Of a stretch of 64,000 nucleotides of DNA, positions 21,679 through 31,404 are shown piece by piece. The translations under genes were made by a program, and so were the position numbers. Position 1 is the stretch's first letter, and the number at the start of each line of letters is the position of its first letter. The DNA lies in assembly GCF_011493005.1 (NCBI RefSeq), contig NZ_CP049156.1, positions 3,844,001 through 3,908,000 of the forward strand, written 5' to 3'. A model generated the notes under the pieces. It was given only the letters and a program-made list of their open reading frames with translations. It searched no databases and was not told the origin of the DNA. Source of the DNA: Caballeronia sp. SBC1. GTDB lineage: Bacteria > Pseudomonadota > Gammaproteobacteria > Burkholderiales > Burkholderiaceae.

Positions 21679-21682
21679 AAGC

Positions 21683-21725
21683 GTCCGCCACACCGCGTGG
21701 CGGACAGGTTCATTGAAATTGAACC
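21683..21725. terminator. Two hairpins between flhA and the permease gene
   Basis: A perfect 9-bp stem GTCCGCCAC/GTGGCGGAC (21683-21705) is followed by GGTTCA/TGAACC (21707-21725). They lie between convergent genes and may end transcription from both sides. No long T-run is present, so efficiency is uncertain. Confidence 0.55.
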
Positions 21726-21731
21726 ACTAAG

Positions 21732-22964
21732 CTACGCGATGCTACGCAAGCGCGTGACCCGGCTGAAGATCGCGTAACAAGCACACGCGACAATAATCGA
21801 ATCGAGCGAAGGGATACTTGTGAGGGAAAACACGCCCTTCACGGTCATGAATCCAACCAGCGATCCGATGATCCACGCAACGAAGGTAAGCGCCTTCACC
21901 TGGGGATCCGTCGCGAGCAAGCGCTCGTCATACCCGCCTCGCCTATACAGCAAAAAGTCTGCGATATAAATCCCGGCCACGGGCGGCGTTGCGATTCCTA
22001 GGAAAAGCAGAAACGGGATAAACCACGCCATGATGTCCATGCTGCCAACAATCACCGCCAGCACGCCAAGCGCAACGGTAATCTGCCATTTCGGAAACCG
22101 CGTGAACAAGGTTGAGACGACCAGCGTGCCTTGAAACATATTCCCGGCATTGCCCGTCACGGTCGCGAAAATAAGCAGCAATGCGGCCGGCAGCACGGCC
22201 CCGAACACGGCCATGGCGCCGAGCAAAGAACCTTTTCCTGATATTCCGCTTGGCGTTGCACCCGCCCAATACAACAACGGATAAGCAATCAGAAACGTCA
22301 GCACCGCGCCAATCAAGGCGTGCTTGCGATCGTGAACGAAACTGCCGAAATCAGGCAGCGTAGCCACCAGCACAATGATCGTCCCGACCACGGTGGAAAC
22401 GGCCACGCCGGTATTCATATCGGTGAAACCGGCTGGTACCGGCACCATTCCGTGAGCCGCGACATAGACGCAATAACAGAGCATCAACGCGATGACGGGT
22501 ATTGCGAACTGAGCCACCTTCCCGAGCAGTTCGAAACCAAAAGCCGTAGCGGCCACAAAGATCACGCAACCTACGGCGACCAGCAGAGGCACGGGTATTT
22601 CGAGGCCCTGTTGCGCCAGCAGATCGTGAACCGAATGCCCGAACATGTTGGCAGTTACCGCAATCCATCCGAACAAACTGATCGCGAGCAGGACGTTGAT
22701 GGCGATCGCGCCTTTTTCGCCGAACGGATACTTGACGATGCCGTACGTTGGAAGCCGCGCCTTCTCGCCAACACAAATGGTGATGCCAGAAAGGATGGTC
22801 AGGATAATGCCGCCGATGACCACCACTTTGATCAACGCCAGACTCGATAGCTGACTACCCAGACTGGAGGAGGAGAGCAAAACCGGCGTAATCGCAATGC
22901 CCAATAAAATCATGGCAATGCGATACCCGGGCGCCGTATTCGGGCGTTCGTCAGTGTTGCGCAT
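21732..22964 (-). CDS. NCS1-family permease (cytosine permease type)
   Basis: A 410-residue membrane protein with about twelve hydrophobic segments, of the NCS1 nucleobase/cation symporter family, nearest in style to CodB. Its substrate is probably a nucleobase-like or ureido compound; the neighbours suggest the substrate of the carbamoyl-transfer operon. The start at 22964 is chosen for AAGGAAC just upstream; an open extension of 33 residues upstream has no ribosome site. Conserved stretches include NMFGHSVHDLL, TATAFGFE-like FVAATAFGFELLGKVAQFA and PDFGSFVHDRKHAL. It is the last gene of the seven-gene operon. Confidence 0.85.
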   Translation of the reverse strand: MRNTDERPNTAPGYRIAMILLGIAITPVLLSSSSLGSQLSSLALIKVVVIGGIILTILSGITICVGEKARLPTYGIVKYPFGEKGAIAINVLLAISLFGWIAVTANMFGHSVHDLLAQQGLEIPVPLLVAVGCVIFVAATAFGFELLGKVAQFAIPVIALMLCYCVYVAAHGMVPVPAGFTDMNTGVAVSTVVGTIIVLVATLPDFGSFVHDRKHALIGAVLTFLIAYPLLYWAGATPSGISGKGSLLGAMAVFGAVLPAALLLIFATVTGNAGNMFQGTLVVSTLFTRFPKWQITVALGVLAVIVGSMDIMAWFIPFLLFLGIATPPVAGIYIADFLLYRRGGYDERLLATDPQVKALTFVAWIIGSLVGFMTVKGVFSLTSIPSLDSIIVACACYAIFSRVTRLRSIA

Positions 22965-22992
22965 ACAAATGTTCCTTGGTGGTTTCAGGCGA

Positions 22993-23385
22993 TCAGGCGG
23001 AGTAGAAATGACCCGTATAGGCACGCCAGCTTCCGTGCGCGGTAATGTCCTTCTGGTCTTCAACCAGCCAGGGTTCGGCCAGCACGCCCAATAGCTGACT
23101 GCCGTCGCGAAGCGTCACCTTGCCGATCGCCAGACCCGCCGGTTCGCTCAACAACAAATCGGCGAATGACGCGAGCGGCAGTTCCCAGATCTCGAGCGCG
23201 ACCGATGTTCCGCCTGTTGCCACGCGGATCATTCCCGGATGCCGATCGCCAATACTCCACAGCCGGTAATGCGGATCGGTGTGATCTTCACGCACGAACA
23301 CGCCGCCCGCCGCGGTCATGTTGCCATTCAGTTCGAGCCCGCGCATGAGCGTGCCGTTGACGGCCAGCAACGTAGTGTTCTTCAT
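22993..23385 (-). CDS. Allophanate hydrolase C-domain-like protein
   Basis: A 130-residue protein that resembles the stand-alone C-terminal domain of allophanate hydrolase (gamma-glutamylcyclotransferase-like fold). It has the start pattern LLAVNGTLMRGLELN and the ending GSWRAYTGHF. In full-length allophanate hydrolase this domain is reported to process the N-carboxycarbamate made by the amidase domain. Here the amidase domain is missing. The ATG at 23385 has AAGG 8 bases upstream. Location between carbamate kinase and permease genes points to handling of a carboxylated or carbamoylated intermediate. Family call from pattern memory; the reaction is inferred. Confidence 0.7.
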   Translation of the reverse strand: MKNTTLLAVNGTLMRGLELNGNMTAAGGVFVREDHTDPHYRLWSIGDRHPGMIRVATGGTSVALEIWELPLASFADLLLSEPAGLAIGKVTLRDGSQLLGVLAEPWLVEDQKDITAHGSWRAYTGHFYSA

Positions 23386-23449
23386 CTGTTTGCCTTCGTT
23401 CTTCAATTAAAATTTGTATTGCTAAATAAAACTCAACCAGCTCGAGCGA

Positions 23450-24409
23450 CTATTGCGTGATCCACGTTCCGGTCTTGCGATCAAGCGCACGCTTGATCGA
23501 TTCCGGACTTGTAATCAGGCCTTTGCCGTGTCCCCCATGCGACCGGCTATAGGTAACGAATCGCATGATTGCTTCCACTTTGGGCAACATGCTGCCCGCG
23601 CCGAACTGATTTTGCGAGATCAATGCCTGCGCTTCGGCCAGGCTTAGCGTGTCGAGCCAGCGCTGCTCCGGCTTGCCGAAATTGATCGCCACCTGTTCAA
23701 CGCCTGTCGGAATCAACAGCAGGTCGGCGCCCAGTTGTTCGGCGAGAAGTGCCGAAGCCAGGTCCTTGTCGATGACCGCTTCCACGCCCGAAATCTGGTG
23801 ATGTTCATCGACTACAACCGGAATACCTCCGCCGCCACATGCGATCACGACGCATCCTTGTGCAAGCAACGTCGAGATCACCTCGCGCTCCATGATCTCC
23901 AGCGGTTGAGGCGATGCCACCGTGCGGCGCCAGCCCCGTCCGGCATCTTCCATGAGCGTCCATCCGAGGGCCTTTTCGCGCTGTCGCGCGGTGGCTTCGT
24001 CGAGGAAAGCGCCTATCGGTTTGCCCGGATTGAGGAACGCCGGATCGTCGCGGCTGACGCGGGTCTGGGTCACAACGGTGACCACGGGCCGATGAATCCC
24101 GCGACGCCGCAGCGCGTTGCTCAGCGCCTTTTGAAACATATAGCCAATCGCGCCCTGCGTATCGCCGACGGCGTAGTCCAGCGGCACCGGCCGGACTTCC
24201 TCGGCGGCAAGTTCTGAGCGGCGCAGGATAAAACCCACTTGCGGTCCGTTACCGTGCGTCAGCACCAGATCCCATCCGGCCTCGATCATGTCGGCAATGT
24301 GCCTCGCACTTTCGACGACGGCGTCGTATTGATCAGGAATGCTATCGTGTTGATCGTCGCGAATCAGCGCGTTGCCGCCAACCGCGACAATTGCCAGAGG
24401 CTTGGTCAT
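23450..24409 (-). CDS. arcC: Carbamate kinase
   Basis: Carbamate kinase, 319 residues, normal size. It converts carbamoyl phosphate plus ADP to ATP, CO2 and ammonia. The N-terminus IVAVGGNAL is the substrate-binding glycine-rich loop. Also visible are VLTHGNGPQVG, the family pattern VIACGGGGIPV and GVEAVIDKDLASALLAEQLG. The ATG at 24409 gives the standard N-terminus; a longer open frame to 24586 runs into the DUF1116 gene and is rejected. It lies 19 bases after that gene. No arginine deiminase or ornithine carbamoyltransferase is nearby, so the carbamoyl phosphate must come from the FdrA/DUF1116/DUF2877 proteins. Confidence 0.93.
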   Translation of the reverse strand: MTKPLAIVAVGGNALIRDDQHDSIPDQYDAVVESARHIADMIEAGWDLVLTHGNGPQVGFILRRSELAAEEVRPVPLDYAVGDTQGAIGYMFQKALSNALRRRGIHRPVVTVVTQTRVSRDDPAFLNPGKPIGAFLDEATARQREKALGWTLMEDAGRGWRRTVASPQPLEIMEREVISTLLAQGCVVIACGGGGIPVVVDEHHQISGVEAVIDKDLASALLAEQLGADLLLIPTGVEQVAINFGKPEQRWLDTLSLAEAQALISQNQFGAGSMLPKVEAIMRFVTYSRSHGGHGKGLITSPESIKRALDRKTGTWITQ

Positions 24410-24428
24410 GATGCGTGTCCCGTATGGT

Positions 24429-25835
24429 TTAGATGTATTCGGCGAGCGCGCGAATCGCGTCAACGAAGCCCGGCATTGGCGCCGTGGTAATGCCCGCGCC
24501 GATCTGCCCGACGCCAGCCTCCTTGTGCGCAATCCCGGTATTGATGATCGGCAGGATGCCGCGATCAACCACCTTGCGGGCATCAATACCCGCGGCGGTC
24601 GGCGCGAAATTCAGCGCGGGGAGAGTGAACGCCGGATTGCCGCCCAGCGTGATGGCCTGCATGCGACGACTGTTGCTGGTGGCGTCCGCCGGCGTGCCGC
24701 CCACGAACTTGACAATGGCCGGCGACGACGCCATGGCGAAGCCGCCCACGCCCGCCGTCTCGGTGATCGCGCTGTCGCCAAGATCGGCAGCGGCGTCTTC
24801 CACGCCATAGCCCGGGAAGAACAAACCCTCCACCGGATTGGCGGGCGCCTGGAACCACCGGTCGCCCGTGCCGGACATGCGAATGCCGAAATTCACGCCG
24901 TTGCGCGCCATGACCGTGATCATTGAACTGAAGGGCACGTTGTGGGCCGCGTCGGTCATTGCCTTGCACGCGGCCATCGAGAGATTCAGGAAGAAGTGAT
25001 CGTTGCTAACAATGAACTCGGTCACGCGTTGAATCCGGTCGATCGGCAATCCGGTCGATAACAACGCGGGAATCAGGCGCTTGATCAAGAGCCCGGTGGC
25101 GGCCGCGTTGCGGTTATGGACTTCGTCGCCCATGTGCAACGCTTGCGCCATCATCGGCTTCAATTCCACTTCGCCCAGCGCCTTCAACGCGGCCTTCAAT
25201 GTCGGCGCGAGTTCTTGCGTCATCCAGTGCAGGCGGTCCAGCACTTCGCGGTTATTGGCGCCGAAACGCAGCACCTTGCCGAGTCCTTCGTTGAAATTGC
25301 TGAAGGCCCGCCGGCCGTTTGTTTTGTTCTCGATCACCCACAGCGGCATGGACGGGCTGATGATGCCCGCCATTGGGCCGACCGCCTGATAGTGGTGACA
25401 CGGCTCGAAGTCAATCGCGCCGTCCGCCGCCAGACGCTCGGCGGCTTCGTGGGTCGTCGCCCATCCTTCAAACAGGATCGCGCCAACAATCGCGCCTTTC
25501 ACCGGTCCGCACATATCGGCCCATTCGATGGGCGGACCCGCATGGAGGATCAGCTTGCGATGCGCCATTGCGCTGATTGCGTGCGACGCGCTCATGACAT
25601 CGACGAGTACCGGCTGGGCCGCGAGATACTGCTGGAACGCCTGTTCGTTGGCCTGATCGACCAGCGGATGGCGAATCAGCGATGCCAGCGCCAGCCCCGC
25701 GCCTACGTCGCCGAGAGCGGGCGGCTGCCAGCGTAAATCAGTGACGTCGCCGCCGGCCAGGGCGAGGTTATCGGCAAAACTGCTCAAGCCTGCGTTCACC
25801 ACGTTCAGTGGCTGGTTAAATAGCGTATTCATCAT
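24429..25835 (-). CDS. DUF1116 protein (YlbE/AllG type)
   Basis: A 468-residue DUF1116 protein, the family of E. coli YlbE (AllG) and YahG. AllG is reported as one of three subunits of oxamate carbamoyltransferase. Conserved patches are VDVMSASHAISAMAHRKLIL, GPMAGIISPSMPLWVIEN and RMSGTGDRWFQAPANPVEG. Two adjacent ATGs at 25835 and 25832 are possible; a TTG at 25910 lies inside fdrA and is rejected. The gene starts 7 bases after fdrA. Substrate cannot be read from sequence. Confidence 0.85.
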   Translation of the reverse strand: MMNTLFNQPLNVVNAGLSSFADNLALAGGDVTDLRWQPPALGDVGAGLALASLIRHPLVDQANEQAFQQYLAAQPVLVDVMSASHAISAMAHRKLILHAGPPIEWADMCGPVKGAIVGAILFEGWATTHEAAERLAADGAIDFEPCHHYQAVGPMAGIISPSMPLWVIENKTNGRRAFSNFNEGLGKVLRFGANNREVLDRLHWMTQELAPTLKAALKALGEVELKPMMAQALHMGDEVHNRNAAATGLLIKRLIPALLSTGLPIDRIQRVTEFIVSNDHFFLNLSMAACKAMTDAAHNVPFSSMITVMARNGVNFGIRMSGTGDRWFQAPANPVEGLFFPGYGVEDAAADLGDSAITETAGVGGFAMASSPAIVKFVGGTPADATSNSRRMQAITLGGNPAFTLPALNFAPTAAGIDARKVVDRGILPIINTGIAHKEAGVGQIGAGITTAPMPGFVDAIRALAEYI

Positions 25836-25842
25836 GGTCCCG

Positions 25843-27399
25843 TTATTTTTGCGCCTGAAGATGGGCAACGTGGCTCGCCCAGAGCGCCGCCTGCGCGTTG
25901 CAACCGGCAACCAGAACGCCGGCTTCGCGCAAGGTATCGACCTGACGGCTTCTGACTTGTGGATCGGCTTCCGTGCCGCAGACGTGGGAAATCAGGACCG
26001 GCAAGTCCTGGCCCGCCGCCTGAAGGCGCGCGTGCTCGATCAGTTCTAACAACTCGCGGGCAGGTTCTGTCGATGCGCCGTAACCCAGCACGAGGTCGAA
26101 TAGCACGACGGCCGTTTGCGGGTCGTTCAGTTCCGCGAGGATTCGCTGGTTGCGCAACGTGGGATCGATCATGGGATGCGGACGGCCGCGCGTGAAATCG
26201 TCATCGCCCATGTCGACGAGTGTGTGACCGGTGCTGTGCCAGATATCCTCGAGCTTGCTGTTGGACGCAACCGGCGTATTCGACGACGCGGCGAAGCCGC
26301 GTTGCCGGCATAACAACTGGCTCTCGTAGCAAAAGGTGCCCCCCGCGAACACCCCGCGGATGAAGCGCCGCATGGGTCGCAAGGTCCGGCTGTAATCGTG
26401 CAGACGGCCTGCGTCCGGTGAGTTGATTTCAGCTACCGTTGGCGGCAGTTTGGCGCCTGAGAGCAATGCGACGGCGAAGCCGGCGGCATCCGCCAGGGTG
26501 TACGCCGGGGTGATCCCCGGCACGTTCATGTCTTCCGGCTTTGCGCCCAGGAAATTGACAACAACCGGCTTGCCCGCCGCGCGCGCCCGCGCCAGGATTT
26601 TTTCCGCCACTGCCGGAGCGGGCGGTTTGGAGATCAGCACGATCACTTGGGTGTCGGGATCCGCAGCCAGCGCATCGAGACCGTACAACATGGAGATCCC
26701 GCCGATCGATTCGTGCAGGTCATGGCCGCCCGTGCCGAGCGCCTGCGAAATCCCGGCGCCCAACTGGTCGATACGGCATGTCACTTCCTGCAATCCGGTG
26801 CCCGATGCCGCCACTACGCCTATCGCCCCGCGCCTCACCACATTGGCGAACCCCAACGGCAACCCATTGATAATGGCCGTCCCACAATCAGGTCCCATCA
26901 CCAGCAGGTTTTTTTCACGCGCGAGTGTCTTGATCTCGAGTTCGTGGGCGAGGCTGACGTTGTCGCTGAAAAGCATGACCGACAGCCCCAGGCGCAGCGC
27001 CTTGATCGCTTCGGCGGCGGCGTAGTCGCCGGGGACCGAAATCAGCGCGAGATTCGATGCTGCCTGTTGTTCCACCGCCATTTCGAGGCTGGCAAGCGGT
27101 GGCGGACGCACGCCGTCGCCGCTTGACTCCTCCGGCTTGCTGTTCAAACGCTCTTCCGCAATAACGAGCGCGCCGTCGCACGCCGCGATCTCTCCGCGTA
27201 CCGCGATCACGAGATCGTTCGGGCCGGCTGTGCAGCCGTCGTCCAGAGCCGCGTCGCGCAGTTGCGCGAGATTGGTGCTCGTTCCCATCACCACCGAGGC
27301 CTGCTCGATGCCGGCAAGTTTGGAGATGTGCGCGGATATCTGCATCAGGGACACGGAGTCCTGATACATGTTCTTGAAGACCTTGGTTCTTATGCTCAT
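25843..27399 (-). CDS. fdrA: FdrA-like protein (AllF type, acyl-CoA synthetase fold)
   Basis: A 518-residue FdrA-like protein with the two-domain fold of succinyl-CoA synthetase. The N-terminus TKVFKNMYQDSVSLMQIS closely matches the family. GPDCGTAIINGLPLGFANVV and AASGTGLQEVTCRIDQLG lie in the phosphate- and ligand-binding halves, and HVCGTEADPQ is near the C-terminus. In E. coli FdrA (AllF) works with AllG and AllH in phosphorolysis of oxalurate to oxamate and carbamoyl phosphate; YahF is a second paralogue of unknown role. Here it is third in the operon, 136 bases after the DUF2877 gene and directly before the DUF1116 gene. Confidence 0.87.
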   Translation of the reverse strand: MSIRTKVFKNMYQDSVSLMQISAHISKLAGIEQASVVMGTSTNLAQLRDAALDDGCTAGPNDLVIAVRGEIAACDGALVIAEERLNSKPEESSGDGVRPPPLASLEMAVEQQAASNLALISVPGDYAAAEAIKALRLGLSVMLFSDNVSLAHELEIKTLAREKNLLVMGPDCGTAIINGLPLGFANVVRRGAIGVVAASGTGLQEVTCRIDQLGAGISQALGTGGHDLHESIGGISMLYGLDALAADPDTQVIVLISKPPAPAVAEKILARARAAGKPVVVNFLGAKPEDMNVPGITPAYTLADAAGFAVALLSGAKLPPTVAEINSPDAGRLHDYSRTLRPMRRFIRGVFAGGTFCYESQLLCRQRGFAASSNTPVASNSKLEDIWHSTGHTLVDMGDDDFTRGRPHPMIDPTLRNQRILAELNDPQTAVVLFDLVLGYGASTEPARELLELIEHARLQAAGQDLPVLISHVCGTEADPQVRSRQVDTLREAGVLVAGCNAQAALWASHVAHLQAQK

Positions 27400-27535
27400 T
27401 TCAGCTTCCGTAATCGTTACACCTTCTTGGTCCAGATTCGGCCGAGTGACCGCCTGGCGAACCCGTCATTGCACGCGGCGGGTGCCATCACTCTGATTAA
27501 TTCGATAATCGTTTTTCGCTAGTCGGTACAATGGA

Positions 27536-28426
27536 TCAGGTCATTTCTTTCTGCTCCACCTTCCCAAGCGCTCTTATTCCGTGCAAGAAGCCGCCGAGAC
27601 AATCTGCTCCAGATGACGAGCCGAATTTCATAACGTTGATTGCCGAAAGTTTCAGCTCCGCCACCGGGACTCCGTGAATCAGGACCGTTGTCAAATGATC
27701 GATCGACTGTGAATAGTGCCCCTGCAACGCGAGCTCCAGATAATGCCTGCTGATACTGGTCGTCCGGTGAAGCTGATTTTTTATGGCCGGGCGCAATAAT
27801 TTCAAATGCGCGGATATAACGCCGAGATGTTGCCACGGCCATAACGACGCCAGATAACCCAGCAGGTAGTCGTCGCCATCCGGCGTCAGCCCCGCTCCGT
27901 ACCCAATCAGTTCGGAGACGCCGCTCTCCAGTTCCGCTTTTTCGTCGCCGAGGTTCAGCCGAGGGTTGCGCCCTCCCGGCGGCCAGCCCGGCACCAGTTG
28001 CAAGCTGCTGCGGACCTCGCGTTCCAGGCAGTACTCCAGCAACTGGCTCGCCAATGCCGGGTAAGCCGCCAGCATCGCGTTCAGCGAATGGCCGCCCCGC
28101 ACCCGATCCGTTCCAGGCCGCCAGCACGGTGCCTGGCTCAGGTTCGCGCGCCAGAGCGTGCCGCGCAACTCGTTGTTCTCGAGCGTGATGGGCTGCCGGG
28201 AGTGCGCTTGATGCCGCCAATCCCAGCCGGGCGGCGTCGAGATCCTTATAGCCGTGGGCAGGTTCTGATAGCGCGGACTCAGCAAGGTCAGCAACTCGCC
28301 ACTCGCCGACGACATGTTCATGGCGTGCTGAAAGCAGCTATGGACCCAGAACCGCTGCGTCTCGCGCGGCCCGTGCTCGGCCATATAGCCGACCGAACAC
28401 ACCGGGAACGTGAGGAGGCGTGCCAT
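27536..28426 (-). CDS. DUF2877 protein (YlbF/AllH type)
   Basis: A 296-residue DUF2877 protein, the third partner of the FdrA/DUF1116 set (E. coli YlbF/AllH, YahE). The family hallmark GYGAGLTPDGDDYLLG is at residues 175-190. ADCLGGFLHGIRAL is near the C-terminus. The start at 28426 lies 17 bases after the amidohydrolase stop, without a strong ribosome site; a TTG at 28465 overlapping that gene is an alternative. GC content and codon use appear similar to the rest of the operon. Confidence 0.8.
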   Translation of the reverse strand: MARLLTFPVCSVGYMAEHGPRETQRFWVHSCFQHAMNMSSASGELLTLLSPRYQNLPTAIRISTPPGWDWRHQAHSRQPITLENNELRGTLWRANLSQAPCWRPGTDRVRGGHSLNAMLAAYPALASQLLEYCLEREVRSSLQLVPGWPPGGRNPRLNLGDEKAELESGVSELIGYGAGLTPDGDDYLLGYLASLWPWQHLGVISAHLKLLRPAIKNQLHRTTSISRHYLELALQGHYSQSIDHLTTVLIHGVPVAELKLSAINVMKFGSSSGADCLGGFLHGIRALGKVEQKEMT

Positions 28427-28442
28427 GGCGGCCCGGCCGGCT

Positions 28443-29111
28443 TCAGCCGCGCAAGCCGTCGACAATCGCCGCGGCGTCGGTGACCCACCCGAAAATTGCG
28501 CCTTGCGCCTTGATCATCTCCAGCGCGGATTTCTGGAATTCCGGGAAATACGACCCGACGCAATCCGCCGGGATAATGCACTCGTAGCCGCGATCATTGG
28601 CTTCGCGAACCGTCGTTGTCACGCAGACCTCGGTCGTCACCCCGCACACGATAAGCGTCTTGATACCGTGGTTTTGCAGAATCAGCTGCAGGTCGGTTTC
28701 GTAGAACGCGCCCTTGCCGGGTTTGTCGATGATGGGTTCGCCCAGCGCCGGATACAGCTCCGGAATGATGTCGTGCCCTGCCTCGCCGCGGACCAGGATG
28801 CGGCCCATGGGGCCGTCGGTGCCAATGAATGTCTTACCGCCGCGCGTCAGTTTCGCAGGCGGGCAATCGGCCAGGTCGGCGCGGTGGCCTTCACGCGTAT
28901 GGATGACCAGCAGCTTCGAATCACGGGCCGCCTTCAGGACTTTCCCGCACGGGACAATCGCGCTGCGCACCAGGGAGACGTCATTTCCCAATGCTTCGCC
29001 AAAGCCTCCCGGTTCAACAAAATCACGCTGCATGTCGATCATGGCCAATGCAGTTGTTTGTGAATCGAACGAGAGCGGGAATGGTTGTGCGCGAAATAGT
29101 TTTTGAGGCAT
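28443..29111 (-). CDS. Isochorismatase-family amidohydrolase, biuret hydrolase-like
   Basis: A 222-residue cysteine hydrolase. The catalytic triad fits Asp26 (MIDMQRDF), Lys130 (IIDKPGKGAF) and Cys163 (GVTTEVCVTT); the Lys-to-Cys distance of 33 residues equals that of the biuret hydrolase BiuH as I recall it. Further likeness includes HTREGHRADLAD, GRILVRGEAGHDIIPELYP and REANDRGYEC. Biuret hydrolase makes allophanate and ammonia; relatives act on ureidoacrylate, N-carbamoylsarcosine and other ureides, so the exact substrate is open. It is the first gene of the operon and probably makes the compound that the FdrA/DUF1116/DUF2877 enzyme splits. The promoter must lie in the AT-rich region upstream. 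Confidence 0.87.
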   Translation of the reverse strand: MPQKLFRAQPFPLSFDSQTTALAMIDMQRDFVEPGGFGEALGNDVSLVRSAIVPCGKVLKAARDSKLLVIHTREGHRADLADCPPAKLTRGGKTFIGTDGPMGRILVRGEAGHDIIPELYPALGEPIIDKPGKGAFYETDLQLILQNHGIKTLIVCGVTTEVCVTTTVREANDRGYECIIPADCVGSYFPEFQKSALEMIKAQGAIFGWVTDAAAIVDGLRG

Positions 29112-29484
29112 TTTGATATTCCTTGATTAATGTCAGGCCCTGAAATGCTTGCTCTGCTATTGCAAATTATCTGAATTGTCCTGCGATTTATTATAGGTAG
29201 GTTCGCCTTGACGGACGATAGAAATTTCATTGACTTGACCATTGTTCATTGATTTTCAAACTTGATTAAAGTCGTTTCTAAAACTTAATAAAATAACTGT
29301 CACGAATTACTCGATACTGTGTTTCGCAATAATAAAACGCCGGGCGAAATAATCACCGCAACCCTGCGACGGAATAACGCGCCGGGCAATGAAACGATTC
29401 ATGAAGTCTATTCACCGTCGTGTCCGCAGAGCATCAATGTAATCGTCTGATGTTTGAACCAGCACGCATTTCCCTGATGCAGCC
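29112..29484. other. AT-rich intergenic region upstream of the amidohydrolase operon
   Basis: About 370 bases without a gene. The part 29130-29400 is far richer in A and T than anything around it (runs such as TTAATAAAATAACT), which suggests imported DNA or a regulator-bound promoter zone. It must hold the promoter of the seven-gene minus-strand operon, but I cannot choose one set of boxes. No regulator gene for the operon is found in the window. Confidence 0.5.
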
Positions 29485-29590
29485 CGTGCGCCGCTTCCGT
29501 CATCGATCTCCCGAATTACCCCGCTTTCCCGGCTCTTATCAGCCGATGGCCCGCCAGCCACCCTTGCAATAATTCATTCACTGGAAAACG
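29485..29590 (+). promoter_or_regulatory. flhF promoter region, paralogous to the flhB promoter
   Basis: CCCGAATTACCCC (29509-29521), ATCAGCCGATGG, AATAAT (29569-29574) and CACTGGA (29579-29585) repeat the block order found before flhB at 18221-18300. The element gives flhF its own start although flhA is 8 kb upstream. Confidence 0.65.
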
Positions 29591-29664
29591 GTACGTCGCT
29601 CAAAACGTGGCGCAACCGGTCAACCGCAACAGATCAGCGTGAGCGCGAGCTCATCGGGGGGTAA

Positions 29665-31404
29665 ATGAACATCCGCAAATTTATCGGTGCCACGAGTCGC
29701 GAAGCGTTTCGGCTTGTCCGTGAGGCACTGGGCCCCGATGCGGTCGTGTTGTCGAACCGGATAACCGAAGACGGCAGCGTCGAGATCGTCGCAGTTGCGG
29801 ACGGCGATCTCGCGAAGATCTCCCCGAAAGCCGCCGCTCAGCACCGCGAAATGAAGCTGAGGGAGTCGGCCGGAAGCCAGTCACATTCGCAGTCACATTC
29901 GCAGTCACTTCAGCAAGCTCATTCGCAGCCGAATTCGCAGCCACAGGCGCATTCTGGTTCGAACCCGTACGCCAGCGGCGATGTCTTTTCGTCGGTGTTC
30001 GGCGCCAATCCCGAGCCGCTGGATGACATGGAACCCACGGCGCTGCCGGATGACCCATCGCGCACGATGGCCGAATCGAATCCCTGGCTGATCGAGCATG
30101 CGCGCCGGGTGGCGCAGTCAGCCGCTGAAAGTGCGCCGCAACGCACGCTGAGCGCATCGGCAGCCATCGCGAAGGGATTGGGCAGTCCGGTGACGGTCAC
30201 GCCGCAGGAATCCGCGCAAGCTCCCGGATGGACACGCGAAGCGGCCCACCTCGCCGCTCGCCGCGCGGAACAAAAAACCGCGCAAATGCTCGCTCAAACC
30301 CAGCCGCAAGCCCACACGTCGGCGGCACAAACCGCCAGTTCGACGCAGGAAGGCGCATTCGCGGGCCTGCCGGCATCGGCGGCCGCCGCGGTGACCGAAG
30401 CCATCCGCACACGCATGGAACAAGTCGTCAACGACACCGTCATGCATGAGCTTTCGTCAATGCGCGGCATGATGGAAGAGCACTTCGCCGGCTTGCTGTG
30501 GGGCGATCGCCAACGCCGCAGCCCGAATCACGCCGCGCTGACCAAGCGCCTGTTCGCCGCCGGTTTCTCCGCGCAGCTGGTCCGTTTGATGATCGACAAC
30601 ATGCCCGAGATCGAACAAGCCGAAGCGTCGATGCAATGGGTTCAGCAAGTGCTCGAAAACAACCTGCCCGTCATGGACAGCGAAGAATCGATGATGAACC
30701 GTGGCGGCGTCTTCGCGCTGATGGGCCCGACGGGCGTGGGCAAGACCACCACCACCGCGAAGCTCGCCGCGCGCTGCGTGATGCGCTTCGGCGCCAGCAA
30801 GGTCGCGCTGCTTACCACCGACAGCTACCGGATCGGCGCACACGAACAACTGCGTATTTTCGGCAAGATCCTCGGGGTGTCGGTGCATGCGGTGAAAGAC
30901 GCGGGCGACCTGCAACTCGCGCTCTCTGAACTGCGCAACAAGCACATCGTGCTGATCGACACGATCGGCATGAGCCAGCGTGACCGTACTGTCGCCGATC
31001 ACATCGCCATGTTGTGCGGCGCCGGCCATCCGGTGCAGCGCCTGCTGCTGCTGAACGCAACCAGCCACGGCGATACGTTGAACGAAGTCGTGCAGGCCTA
31101 CCAGAGCACGCCGGACCAGCCGCCACTCGCGGGCTGCATCCTGACCAAGCTCGACGAAGCCACGAACCTGGGTGGCGTACTCGACACCGTGATCCGCTAC
31201 AAGCTGCCCGTGCACTACGTATCGACGGGTCAGAAGGTGCCGGAAAACCTGTACGTCGCGACCAAGCGCTTCCTGATTAAAAGCGCGTTCTGCATTCCGC
31301 GCGACGGCTCGCCGTTCGTGCCGCAAGACGACGACGTGCCGCCGCTCCTGTCCGCGCTCTCAGCGCGCGCTTCCACCGAACTGCATGAGGTGCACTTTGG
31401 ATAA
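29665..31404 (+). CDS. flhF: Flagellar GTPase FlhF
   Basis: FlhF, 579 residues, an SRP-type GTPase that helps set the place and number of flagella. The N-terminus MNIRKFIGATSREAFRLVRE is the basic B domain. Residues about 70-300 form a low-complexity linker with Ser-His-Gln repeats and Ala-rich stretches. The GTPase core has the P-loop GPTGVGKTTT (354-363), LLTTDSYRIGAHEQL, the DTIGM switch and the specificity motif TKLDEA. Strong G-rich ribosome site before the ATG. It overlaps the start of flhG. Confidence 0.95.
   Translation: MNIRKFIGATSREAFRLVREALGPDAVVLSNRITEDGSVEIVAVADGDLAKISPKAAAQHREMKLRESAGSQSHSQSHSQSLQQAHSQPNSQPQAHSGSNPYASGDVFSSVFGANPEPLDDMEPTALPDDPSRTMAESNPWLIEHARRVAQSAAESAPQRTLSASAAIAKGLGSPVTVTPQESAQAPGWTREAAHLAARRAEQKTAQMLAQTQPQAHTSAAQTASSTQEGAFAGLPASAAAAVTEAIRTRMEQVVNDTVMHELSSMRGMMEEHFAGLLWGDRQRRSPNHAALTKRLFAAGFSAQLVRLMIDNMPEIEQAEASMQWVQQVLENNLPVMDSEESMMNRGGVFALMGPTGVGKTTTTAKLAARCVMRFGASKVALLTTDSYRIGAHEQLRIFGKILGVSVHAVKDAGDLQLALSELRNKHIVLIDTIGMSQRDRTVADHIAMLCGAGHPVQRLLLLNATSHGDTLNEVVQAYQSTPDQPPLAGCILTKLDEATNLGGVLDTVIRYKLPVHYVSTGQKVPENLYVATKRFLIKSAFCIPRDGSPFVPQDDDVPPLLSALSARASTELHEVHFG

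Follow-up and report, generated by a model that had tools for sequence, protein, structure and literature searches.

Triuret, a small molecule of linked urea units, occurs in human urine. Its described breakdown by TrtA, TrtB, BiuH and AtzF starts with the triuret hydrolase TrtA, and the same work states that TrtA and cyanuric acid hydrolase both yield carboxybiuret, which decarboxylates to biuret (PMC7948467). Another ureido system is that of Escherichia coli K-12, in which AllF, AllG and AllH act with the carbamate kinase AllK as an oxamic transcarbamylase, proven on carbamoyl phosphate and oxamate (PMC11326118). Neighbourhoods of biuH and allFGHK have been described in nitrifiers (PMC12625717), and a report of 2026 described an E. 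coli operon as GR 29 and likened it to the Rut pyrimidine pathway (PMC12928451). Here we analyse an operon that joins a TrtA-like hydrolase to AllFGH-type subunits, in a 64,000-nucleotide stretch of Caballeronia sp. SBC1 (contig NZ_CP049156.1, positions 3,844,001 to 3,908,000; hereafter the window).

The operon comprises seven open reading frames (ORFs) on the minus strand, running from 29111 to 21732 in the order hydrolase-AllH-AllF-AllG-kinase-AH_C-permease, where AH_C denotes a stand-alone allophanate hydrolase C-domain protein. Genes, order and place are those given by an earlier interpretation of the DNA alone (the sequence-only reading), and each protein exceeds its Pfam cut-off (Isochorismatase, AllH, CoA_binding plus Ligase_CoA, AllG, AA_kinase, AH_C and Transp_cyt_pur, respectively). 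The gaps that it put at 7-136 bases measure 16, 136, 7, 19, 64 and 28 bases with the chosen starts. Its assignment of AllFGH-type families and a carbamate kinase agrees with profile scores above the cut-offs, so that all three subunit families of the oxamic transcarbamylase are represented. As it also stated, there is no allantoin gene among the seven; AllD, the oxalurate maker, stayed below the cut-off in the source genome (best 156.7 bits versus 496.2).

Sequence comparison makes it probable that this is a catabolic operon for a triuret-type compound, in which biuret or carboxybiuret is phosphorolysed with a gain of ATP. The permease would take up a urea oligomer, most likely triuret, from which the TrtA-like hydrolase would strip one ammonia to give carboxybiuret; this would lose CO2, spontaneously or through the AH_C protein, to form biuret. 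With phosphate, AllF-AllG-AllH would convert biuret (or carboxybiuret) to carbamoyl phosphate and urea (or allophanate), and the carbamate kinase would use carbamoyl phosphate and ADP to make ATP and carbamate, the latter ending as CO2 and ammonia. We infer here the transported compound, the AllFGH substrate and the role of the AH_C protein. The same outline (ureido uptake, amide hydrolysis, a phosphate split to carbamoyl phosphate, and ATP) had been drawn by the sequence-only reading, and as a reading we judge it right. Its proposal that the substrate is new for the AllFGH group probably stands, from gene context, whereas the biuret/allophanate type that it favoured is corrected here to triuret/carboxybiuret.

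The cysteine hydrolase and the conserved operon

From sequence alone, the first gene had been taken to encode a biuret hydrolase-like enzyme, an assignment that had to be abandoned. Compared with solved structures, the hydrolase matched 6xix best (254.5 bits), ahead of the BiuH structures 6xjm (233.6) and 6azo (220.9) and of RutB (96.6); 6xix is the structure of TrtA (PMC7948467). That paper chose F35, N41, A134, E160, Y187 and I205 as the motif differences between TrtA and BiuH, and in TrtA the changes F35Y, N41Y or Y187T left less than 10% of the activity, E160D left about half and A134S caused no loss. The window hydrolase has the TrtA state at all six positions (FNAEYI), versus YYSDTV in BiuH 6azo, YYADTV in the Rhodococcus BiuH and YMADGI in a guanylurea hydrolase; residues of BiuH are also treated in PMC5806882. 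The guanylurea hydrolase control is the IHL of plasmid pMET-2, the sole cysteine hydrolase in the stretch read, which was taken as the enzyme of PMC9800807. The triad D24, K129 and C162, together with F29, E72, K132, T158 and Q202, is identical to TrtA (8/8), and FNAEYI recurs in 117 of the best 120 of 8000 homologues, at 77% identity or more. In the residue comparison, the hydrolase row of one genus locus, L097, breaks off before its end.

A tree was built from 34 selected rows, in which a distant homologue (L083_3276) and the guanylurea hydrolase served as outside rows; it placed the window clade as the sister of the characterised TrtA clade (97/91), with BiuH apart. The score with the BiuH equivalog NF050097 was 264.3 bits, under the cut-off of 370. 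On residues, tree and cut-off together, we reject biuret hydrolase for the first gene. The enzyme is predicted to be of the triuret hydrolase kind, and its expected product is therefore carboxybiuret, then biuret, the chemistry of TrtA being taken from work on this relative.

The operon is not peculiar to the source genome (8.85 Mb, 5 contigs), in which the stretch is single-copy and contains the only AllG gene. Of the 58 genus genomes, 24 have AllG and 17, including the source genome, have its high-scoring type (313-330 bits). The other 16 high-scoring loci were all fetched, along with four that scored lower. Hydrolase, AllF, AllG, kinase and AH_C were matched at every one of the 16, as was the permease, although in L095 and L101 the match covers no more than some 60% of it; AllH was matched at 12. 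Of the four loci without an AllH match, L098 and L106 were scanned, and both have a LysR gene after the permease. As in the window, flhF adjoins the operon at nine of the 16 loci, while neither flhA nor flhF is on the fetched stretch of the other seven, so that the operon seems to have been relocated or gained more than once. In L097 (7700-13831) the hydrolase and kinase frames are interrupted, by decay of the copy or by an assembly error. Very distant AllG-like genes (32-37% identity) with unmatched partner genes were also seen in the same genus (L110-L113).

E. coli carries the operon as well. In strain SMS-3-5 all seven genes recur in unchanged order, with LysR behind them, at a site between ysgA and metE (identity to the window: AllG 80%, hydrolase 84%, AH_C 75.6%); in K-12, metE adjoins ysgA and the operon is absent from the site. 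Among 5426 complete E. coli genomes, 1543 matched the DNA of the last two genes at 60-80% identity, 1541 of them across no less than 80% of the query; 125 of the places were on plasmids. One chromosomal and two plasmid copies were read. Six genes of plasmid P707_1 (L008) match at full length and the permease over 80%. In pAPEC-O2-ColV (L003 4812-8126), the hydrolase, AllH and AllF matches each fall in at least two pieces, and this copy may not be whole. Photobacterium has hydrolase-AllH-AllF-AllG-kinase-AH_C and then the permease, and a more distant gammaproteobacterium (L114; AllG 60% identical to E. coli AllG) has AH_C-hydrolase-AllH-AllF-AllG-kinase. Gene content and order were computed directly, and the order is not due to chance. 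Co-occurrence in other genomes, which the sequence-only reading had put forward as a check, is borne out by the genus loci, SMS-3-5 and Photobacterium.

AllFGH and carbamate kinase beside cyanuric acid hydrolase

Outside the operon, the AllFGH-kinase sets found to be closest to that of the window lie on enterobacterial plasmids, beside cyanuric acid hydrolase and not TrtA. On a Klebsiella plasmid (L005), AllG, AllF and the kinase are 77.5%, 64.7% and 68.8% identical to those of the window, an upstream gene encodes cyanuric acid hydrolase (580 bits versus a curated cut-off of 360), and an NCS2 permease is also present. This plasmid, a K. michiganensis plasmid contig (L016) and a Huaxiibacter contig (L014) all have AllH-AllF-AllG-kinase together with cyanuric acid hydrolase, and no TrtA gene was found at the three loci. 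Plasmids of Citrobacter, Enterobacter and Leclercia match equally well in sequence. The operon of Aminobacter pSR8 reads hypothetical-FdrA-DUF1116-hydrolase-kinase, and its hydrolase of 370 residues has zero differences from PDB 5t13, a cyanuric acid amidohydrolase that we take to be TrzD. The atrazine gene atzC on Paenarthrobacter pTC1 (L009 9986-12782) lies behind a truncated AllG (60%) and a gene resembling carbamate kinase (48%), an arrangement that suggests its origin in an AllFGH-kinase operon of this sort.

To see how far this association extends, species genomes were scanned for cyanuric acid hydrolase and the best 80 of 540 relatives were kept. AllF and/or AllG lay within 10 kb at 33 of the 80 loci (AllF, AllG and kinase at 22), co-stranded with the hydrolase at all but one of the 33 (L052). 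The remaining 47 loci have neither AllF nor AllG, and 19 of these have less than 5 kb of flank on one side. Linked loci are mainly from Bacillota, with others from Mycoplasmatota, Eggerthellaceae, Chloroflexota and a few Pseudomonadota; at the loci of Bradyrhizobium, Reyranella and Roseomonas no AllF or AllG was found. As a background figure, from taxa that differ from those of the 80 loci, AllG was present in 6 of 369 genomes of the class of the window (5 over the cut-off). At 32 of the 33 linked loci there is also a putative membrane protein with no Pfam match (L005 3012-4247 and L004 8608-9972, 36% alike), a candidate transporter. A different context was seen in Methylocystis (L007 7659-12283), where a nitrilase/radical-SAM cluster includes AllF-like and AllG-like genes.

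In an AllG tree of 52 rows, the TrtA-linked clade of the window (14 rows, support 100/100) includes three enterobacterial rows from cyanuric acid loci, nested beside E. coli and Photobacterium (inner five rows, 98/86), while the allantoin AllG of K-12 falls outside the clade. The tree omits L003, L008, L009, L095, L096, L097, L099, L102, L104, L105 and L107 (near copies, interrupted or truncated), and L031 and L052, which were too short. This nesting indicates that the first enzyme was exchanged while AllFGH and the kinase were retained. Since the two exchanged enzymes share carboxybiuret as their product, as described for relatives of both, the window AllFGH most likely phosphorolyses biuret or carboxybiuret, and not oxalurate, to carbamoyl phosphate.

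The AllG sequences carry a matching signature, which is K226, N278-x-H280 and S286 in the window. Among the linked AllG sequences, N278 and H280 are present in 44/44, S286 in 43/44 and K226 in 41/44. The K-12 allantoin AllG differs at all four positions, with T, Q, A and T against N278, H280, S286 and K226. One of the eight unlinked AllG (L010) also has N and H; K-12 is the only one of the eight with proven function.

Companion genes were then compared across genomes. Nineteen genomes have cyanuric acid hydrolase with AllF/AllG and no cysteine hydrolase at the locus, and 17 of them have no BiuH/TrtA-type enzyme; the remaining two have one at 49% identity, and two others have only a 28% or 35% homologue. 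A wider set of 26 genomes or records added five more with the linkage, a Peptoclostridium plasmid and the source genome, which has no BiuH/TrtA-type enzyme beyond the operon hydrolase. The AH_C domain was absent from 23 of the 26 and present in three, stand-alone in the source genome and Melaminivora and in full-length copies in K. michiganensis. Thus 25 of the 26 have no ordinary allophanate hydrolase (amidase-only allophanate hydrolases were not searched for). AllD exceeded the cut-off in one of 24 genomes or records, that of Enterococcus aquimarinus.

The AH_C protein is the only AH_C match in the source genome. The allophanate hydrolase C-domain named in the sequence-only reading is indeed there (PF21986), whereas no amidase domain was matched in the 137-residue ORF, which therefore lacks the amidase-plus-AH_C make-up of AtzF and may be a decarboxylase. 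Its best structure match was PDB 5c5z (211.7 bits), presumably the protein c4763. Elsewhere, AH_C-only genes directly follow cyanuric acid hydrolase at two Rokubacteria loci, with an amidase next by family scan, and a Melaminivora contig has a stand-alone AH_C and a kinase that shares 97% identity with the kinase of the Aminobacter operon, along with a Bmp fragment and an aminohydrolase. A search of 274 genomes of the class, which served only for choosing loci, gave 32 AH_C matches, five of them in open frames of fewer than 180 residues. To our knowledge, all known or supposed ligands of AH_C domains carry an N-carboxy group. As carboxybiuret is common to the AH_C contexts, a decarboxylase role is plausible by analogy, and the protein is a candidate carboxybiuret decarboxylase. 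With such a candidate in the operon, we prefer the conversion of biuret to urea over that of carboxybiuret to allophanate.

Alternative substrates and the evidence that bears on them

Several observations weigh against the proposed triuret route. At the first step, the hydrolase is 55% identical to the assayed TrtA and 50% to BiuH, figures to be set beside its score under the BiuH equivalog. A134 is found in the Rhodococcus BiuH too, A134S is harmless to TrtA and E160D leaves it half active (PMC7948467). Eight Bacillota hydrolases have His160 (FN[AS]HFI), unlike TrtA and BiuH alike, and may act on another substrate. Among the subunits, AllH had no match on the fetched stretches of four of the 16 genus loci (L098, L100, L105 and L106), where no ORF in the interval from hydrolase to AllF reaches 150 residues, so that AllF-AllG may work without AllH or borrow a subunit from elsewhere.

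Other points concern the cyanuric acid loci. The 80 loci are the best of 540 and hence biased to that clade, and several genomes are drafts or metagenome-assembled genomes, in which absence weighs little. AH_C was found at none of the 33 loci with cyanuric acid hydrolase and AllF/AllG, and its tie to a carboxybiuret step comes from the TrtA-linked loci and three other contexts. Urease was strong in three of the 26 genomes or records (the source genome and two enterobacteria), weak in four (23-27 bits) and not found in 19, so the urea produced would often be waste. A BiuH-type enzyme is present at five of the 33 loci. The Klebsiella plasmid pA708-3 also carries BiuH-type, TrtA-type and AtzF genes, and AllFGH may be an extra there. 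These genes form a cluster with a BMP/ABC transporter and GntR (L123 5616-15239), about 15 kb from the cyanuric acid operon of the plasmid, and a second, split atzF lies closer.

The BiuH-type enzymes would suit allophanate as the AllFGH substrate, or salvage, and so lead to the most serious alternative, a stepwise attack on the carboxylated forms. AllFGH would phosphorolyse first carboxybiuret to allophanate and then allophanate to carbamate, so that two molecules of carbamoyl phosphate arise but no urea, an alternative that overlaps with our proposal where the latter names carboxybiuret. On chemical reasoning, allophanate and carboxybiuret, with a carboxylate at one end and a carbamoyl group at the other, mimic oxalurate better than biuret does. 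The BiuH-type enzymes at the five loci would return spontaneously formed biuret to allophanate, and three of the five genomes (L017, L023 and L049, those searched) lack AH_C and so an ordinary allophanate hydrolase. The missing strong urease match in 23 of 26 genomes or records and the missing AH_C at the 33 loci also fit. On the other side, a decarboxylase, as the AH_C protein of the operon seems to be, would waste the carboxylated substrate, and carboxybiuret decays unaided. We regard the stepwise route as a serious alternative, though a rather unlikely one.

Less probable by a clear step, and improbable overall, is that the hydrolase acts on an amide (oxaluramide, for instance) to yield oxalurate, which AllFGH then splits to oxamate and carbamoyl phosphate. 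The activity proven for K-12 AllFGH and the presence of AllF, AllG and AllH in the operon agree with this, but the hydrolase has TrtA-type residues, cyanuric acid hydrolase occupies the same place in relatives, AllD stays under its cut-off in the source genome, the AllG signature is altered relative to K-12, and AH_C would be left without a role. An oxalurate or allantoin function is thus disfavoured by the AllD scan and the AllG signature. Slightly less probable again is a division into two jobs, ureide hydrolysis by the hydrolase and oxalurate use by AllFGHK, as the biuH-allFGHK neighbourhoods of nitrifiers have been read (PMC12625717); this is at odds with one compact operon of fixed order that has a single upstream hydrolase and no oxalurate-forming gene, and with a kinase-AllFGH set that accompanies two different carboxybiuret makers. 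Very unlikely is a Rut-like use of pyrimidine nitrogen, with a RutB-like hydrolase and a cytosine-type permease, as proposed for GR 29 (PMC12928451), because the resemblance is distant (102 bits with the RutB model TIGR03614, cut-off 377.95; 138.6 bits with the cytosine permease model NF008241, cut-off 326, which leaves the permease outside CodB), TrtA is far nearer than RutB among structures, and no clear substrate would remain for AllFGH and AH_C.

Gene list and relation to known systems

The operon sits between flhA and flhF (window 21679-29664; both named by family scan), and its features are listed in Table 1. A sigma-70-like promoter was sought in 29080-29700 and gave no match, and sigma-54-like matches across the whole window were no more numerous than in shuffled sequence. 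A defence role was also considered and rejected, with no PADLOC match among the five proteins tried.

Table 1. Features of the operon, in order of transcription, with window coordinates and profile evidence.
Feature	Position	Strand	Evidence and start
Intergenic stretch before flhF, presumed promoter region	29112..29664	.	No convincing site
Cysteine hydrolase, isochorismatase-like, TrtA (triuret hydrolase)-like	28443..29111	-	PF00857
AllH-like subunit (DUF2877)	27536..28426	-	PF11392, 73.9 bits vs cut-off 25; ATG 28426 taken
AllF/FdrA-like subunit	25843..27399	-	NF004760, 489.6 bits vs cut-off 433
AllG-like subunit (DUF1116)	24429..25835	-	PF06545, 323.7 bits vs cut-off 27; ATG 25835 taken
Carbamate kinase	23450..24409	-	TIGR00746, 364.2 bits vs cut-off 358.25; ATG 24409 taken
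Stand-alone allophanate hydrolase C-domain (AH_C) protein	22993..23385	-	PF21986, 142.4 bits vs cut-off 27; ATG 23385 taken
NCS1 permease, CodB-like	21732..22964	-	PF02133, 42.5 bits vs cut-off 23.5; ATG 22964 taken

Whether these loci together make up a widespread ATP-yielding route for urea oligomers is, in our estimate, evenly balanced. In such a route, AllFGH would phosphorolyse the biuret-type products of TrtA or cyanuric acid hydrolase and carbamate kinase would make the ATP; it would serve bacteria living on cyanuric acid, many of which are anaerobic, as well as E. coli strains with a chromosomal or plasmid copy, which would use it for triuret. If true, AllFGH, known only from allantoin breakdown, would gain a second substrate class, and cyanuric acid breakdown would acquire its missing lower part in bacteria that have the ring-opening enzyme and in which no biuret hydrolase or ordinary allophanate hydrolase was found. 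A function would also be given to an operon whose last two genes have matches, some of them plasmid-borne, in more than a quarter of the complete E. coli genomes. Among the papers listed by searches of the open-access literature on cyanuric acid, biuret or triuret, none dealt with the phosphorolysis of biuret.

The E. coli operon itself is already on record with another interpretation (PMC12928451). By gene order and by identity to SMS-3-5, GR 29 and the PDB 5c5z protein belong to the same seven-gene operon; the SMS-3-5 copy is followed by LysR at the ysgA-metE site, and the window copy lies at the flhA-flhF site. With K-12 AllFGH and AllK (PMC11326118) the operon shares the three subunit families, the carbamate kinase and the expected release of carbamoyl phosphate for ATP. 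It differs in having no allantoin genes, in its TrtA-like and AH_C partners, and in sequence (AllG 49% and AllF 40% identical, with AllG differing at the four signature positions).

With the TrtA-TrtB-BiuH-AtzF pathway (PMC7948467) it shares a first enzyme of the TrtA kind and the expected carboxybiuret, whereas the operon continues with AllFGH and carbamate kinase, there is no second BiuH/TrtA-type enzyme, and the genome has no full-length allophanate hydrolase with an AH_C domain. The nitrifier clusters resemble the window operon in an isochorismatase-like hydrolase beside allFGHK; they have been assigned to two distinct pathways, one for biuret and one for oxalurate, in which atzF or a gatA-like amidohydrolase also figures (PMC12625717). 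The cyanuric acid hydrolase operons L004, L005 and L015 share AllF-AllG-(AllH)-carbamate kinase and the entry at carboxybiuret with the window operon but have a ring-opening amidohydrolase in place of TrtA, other transporters and no AH_C.

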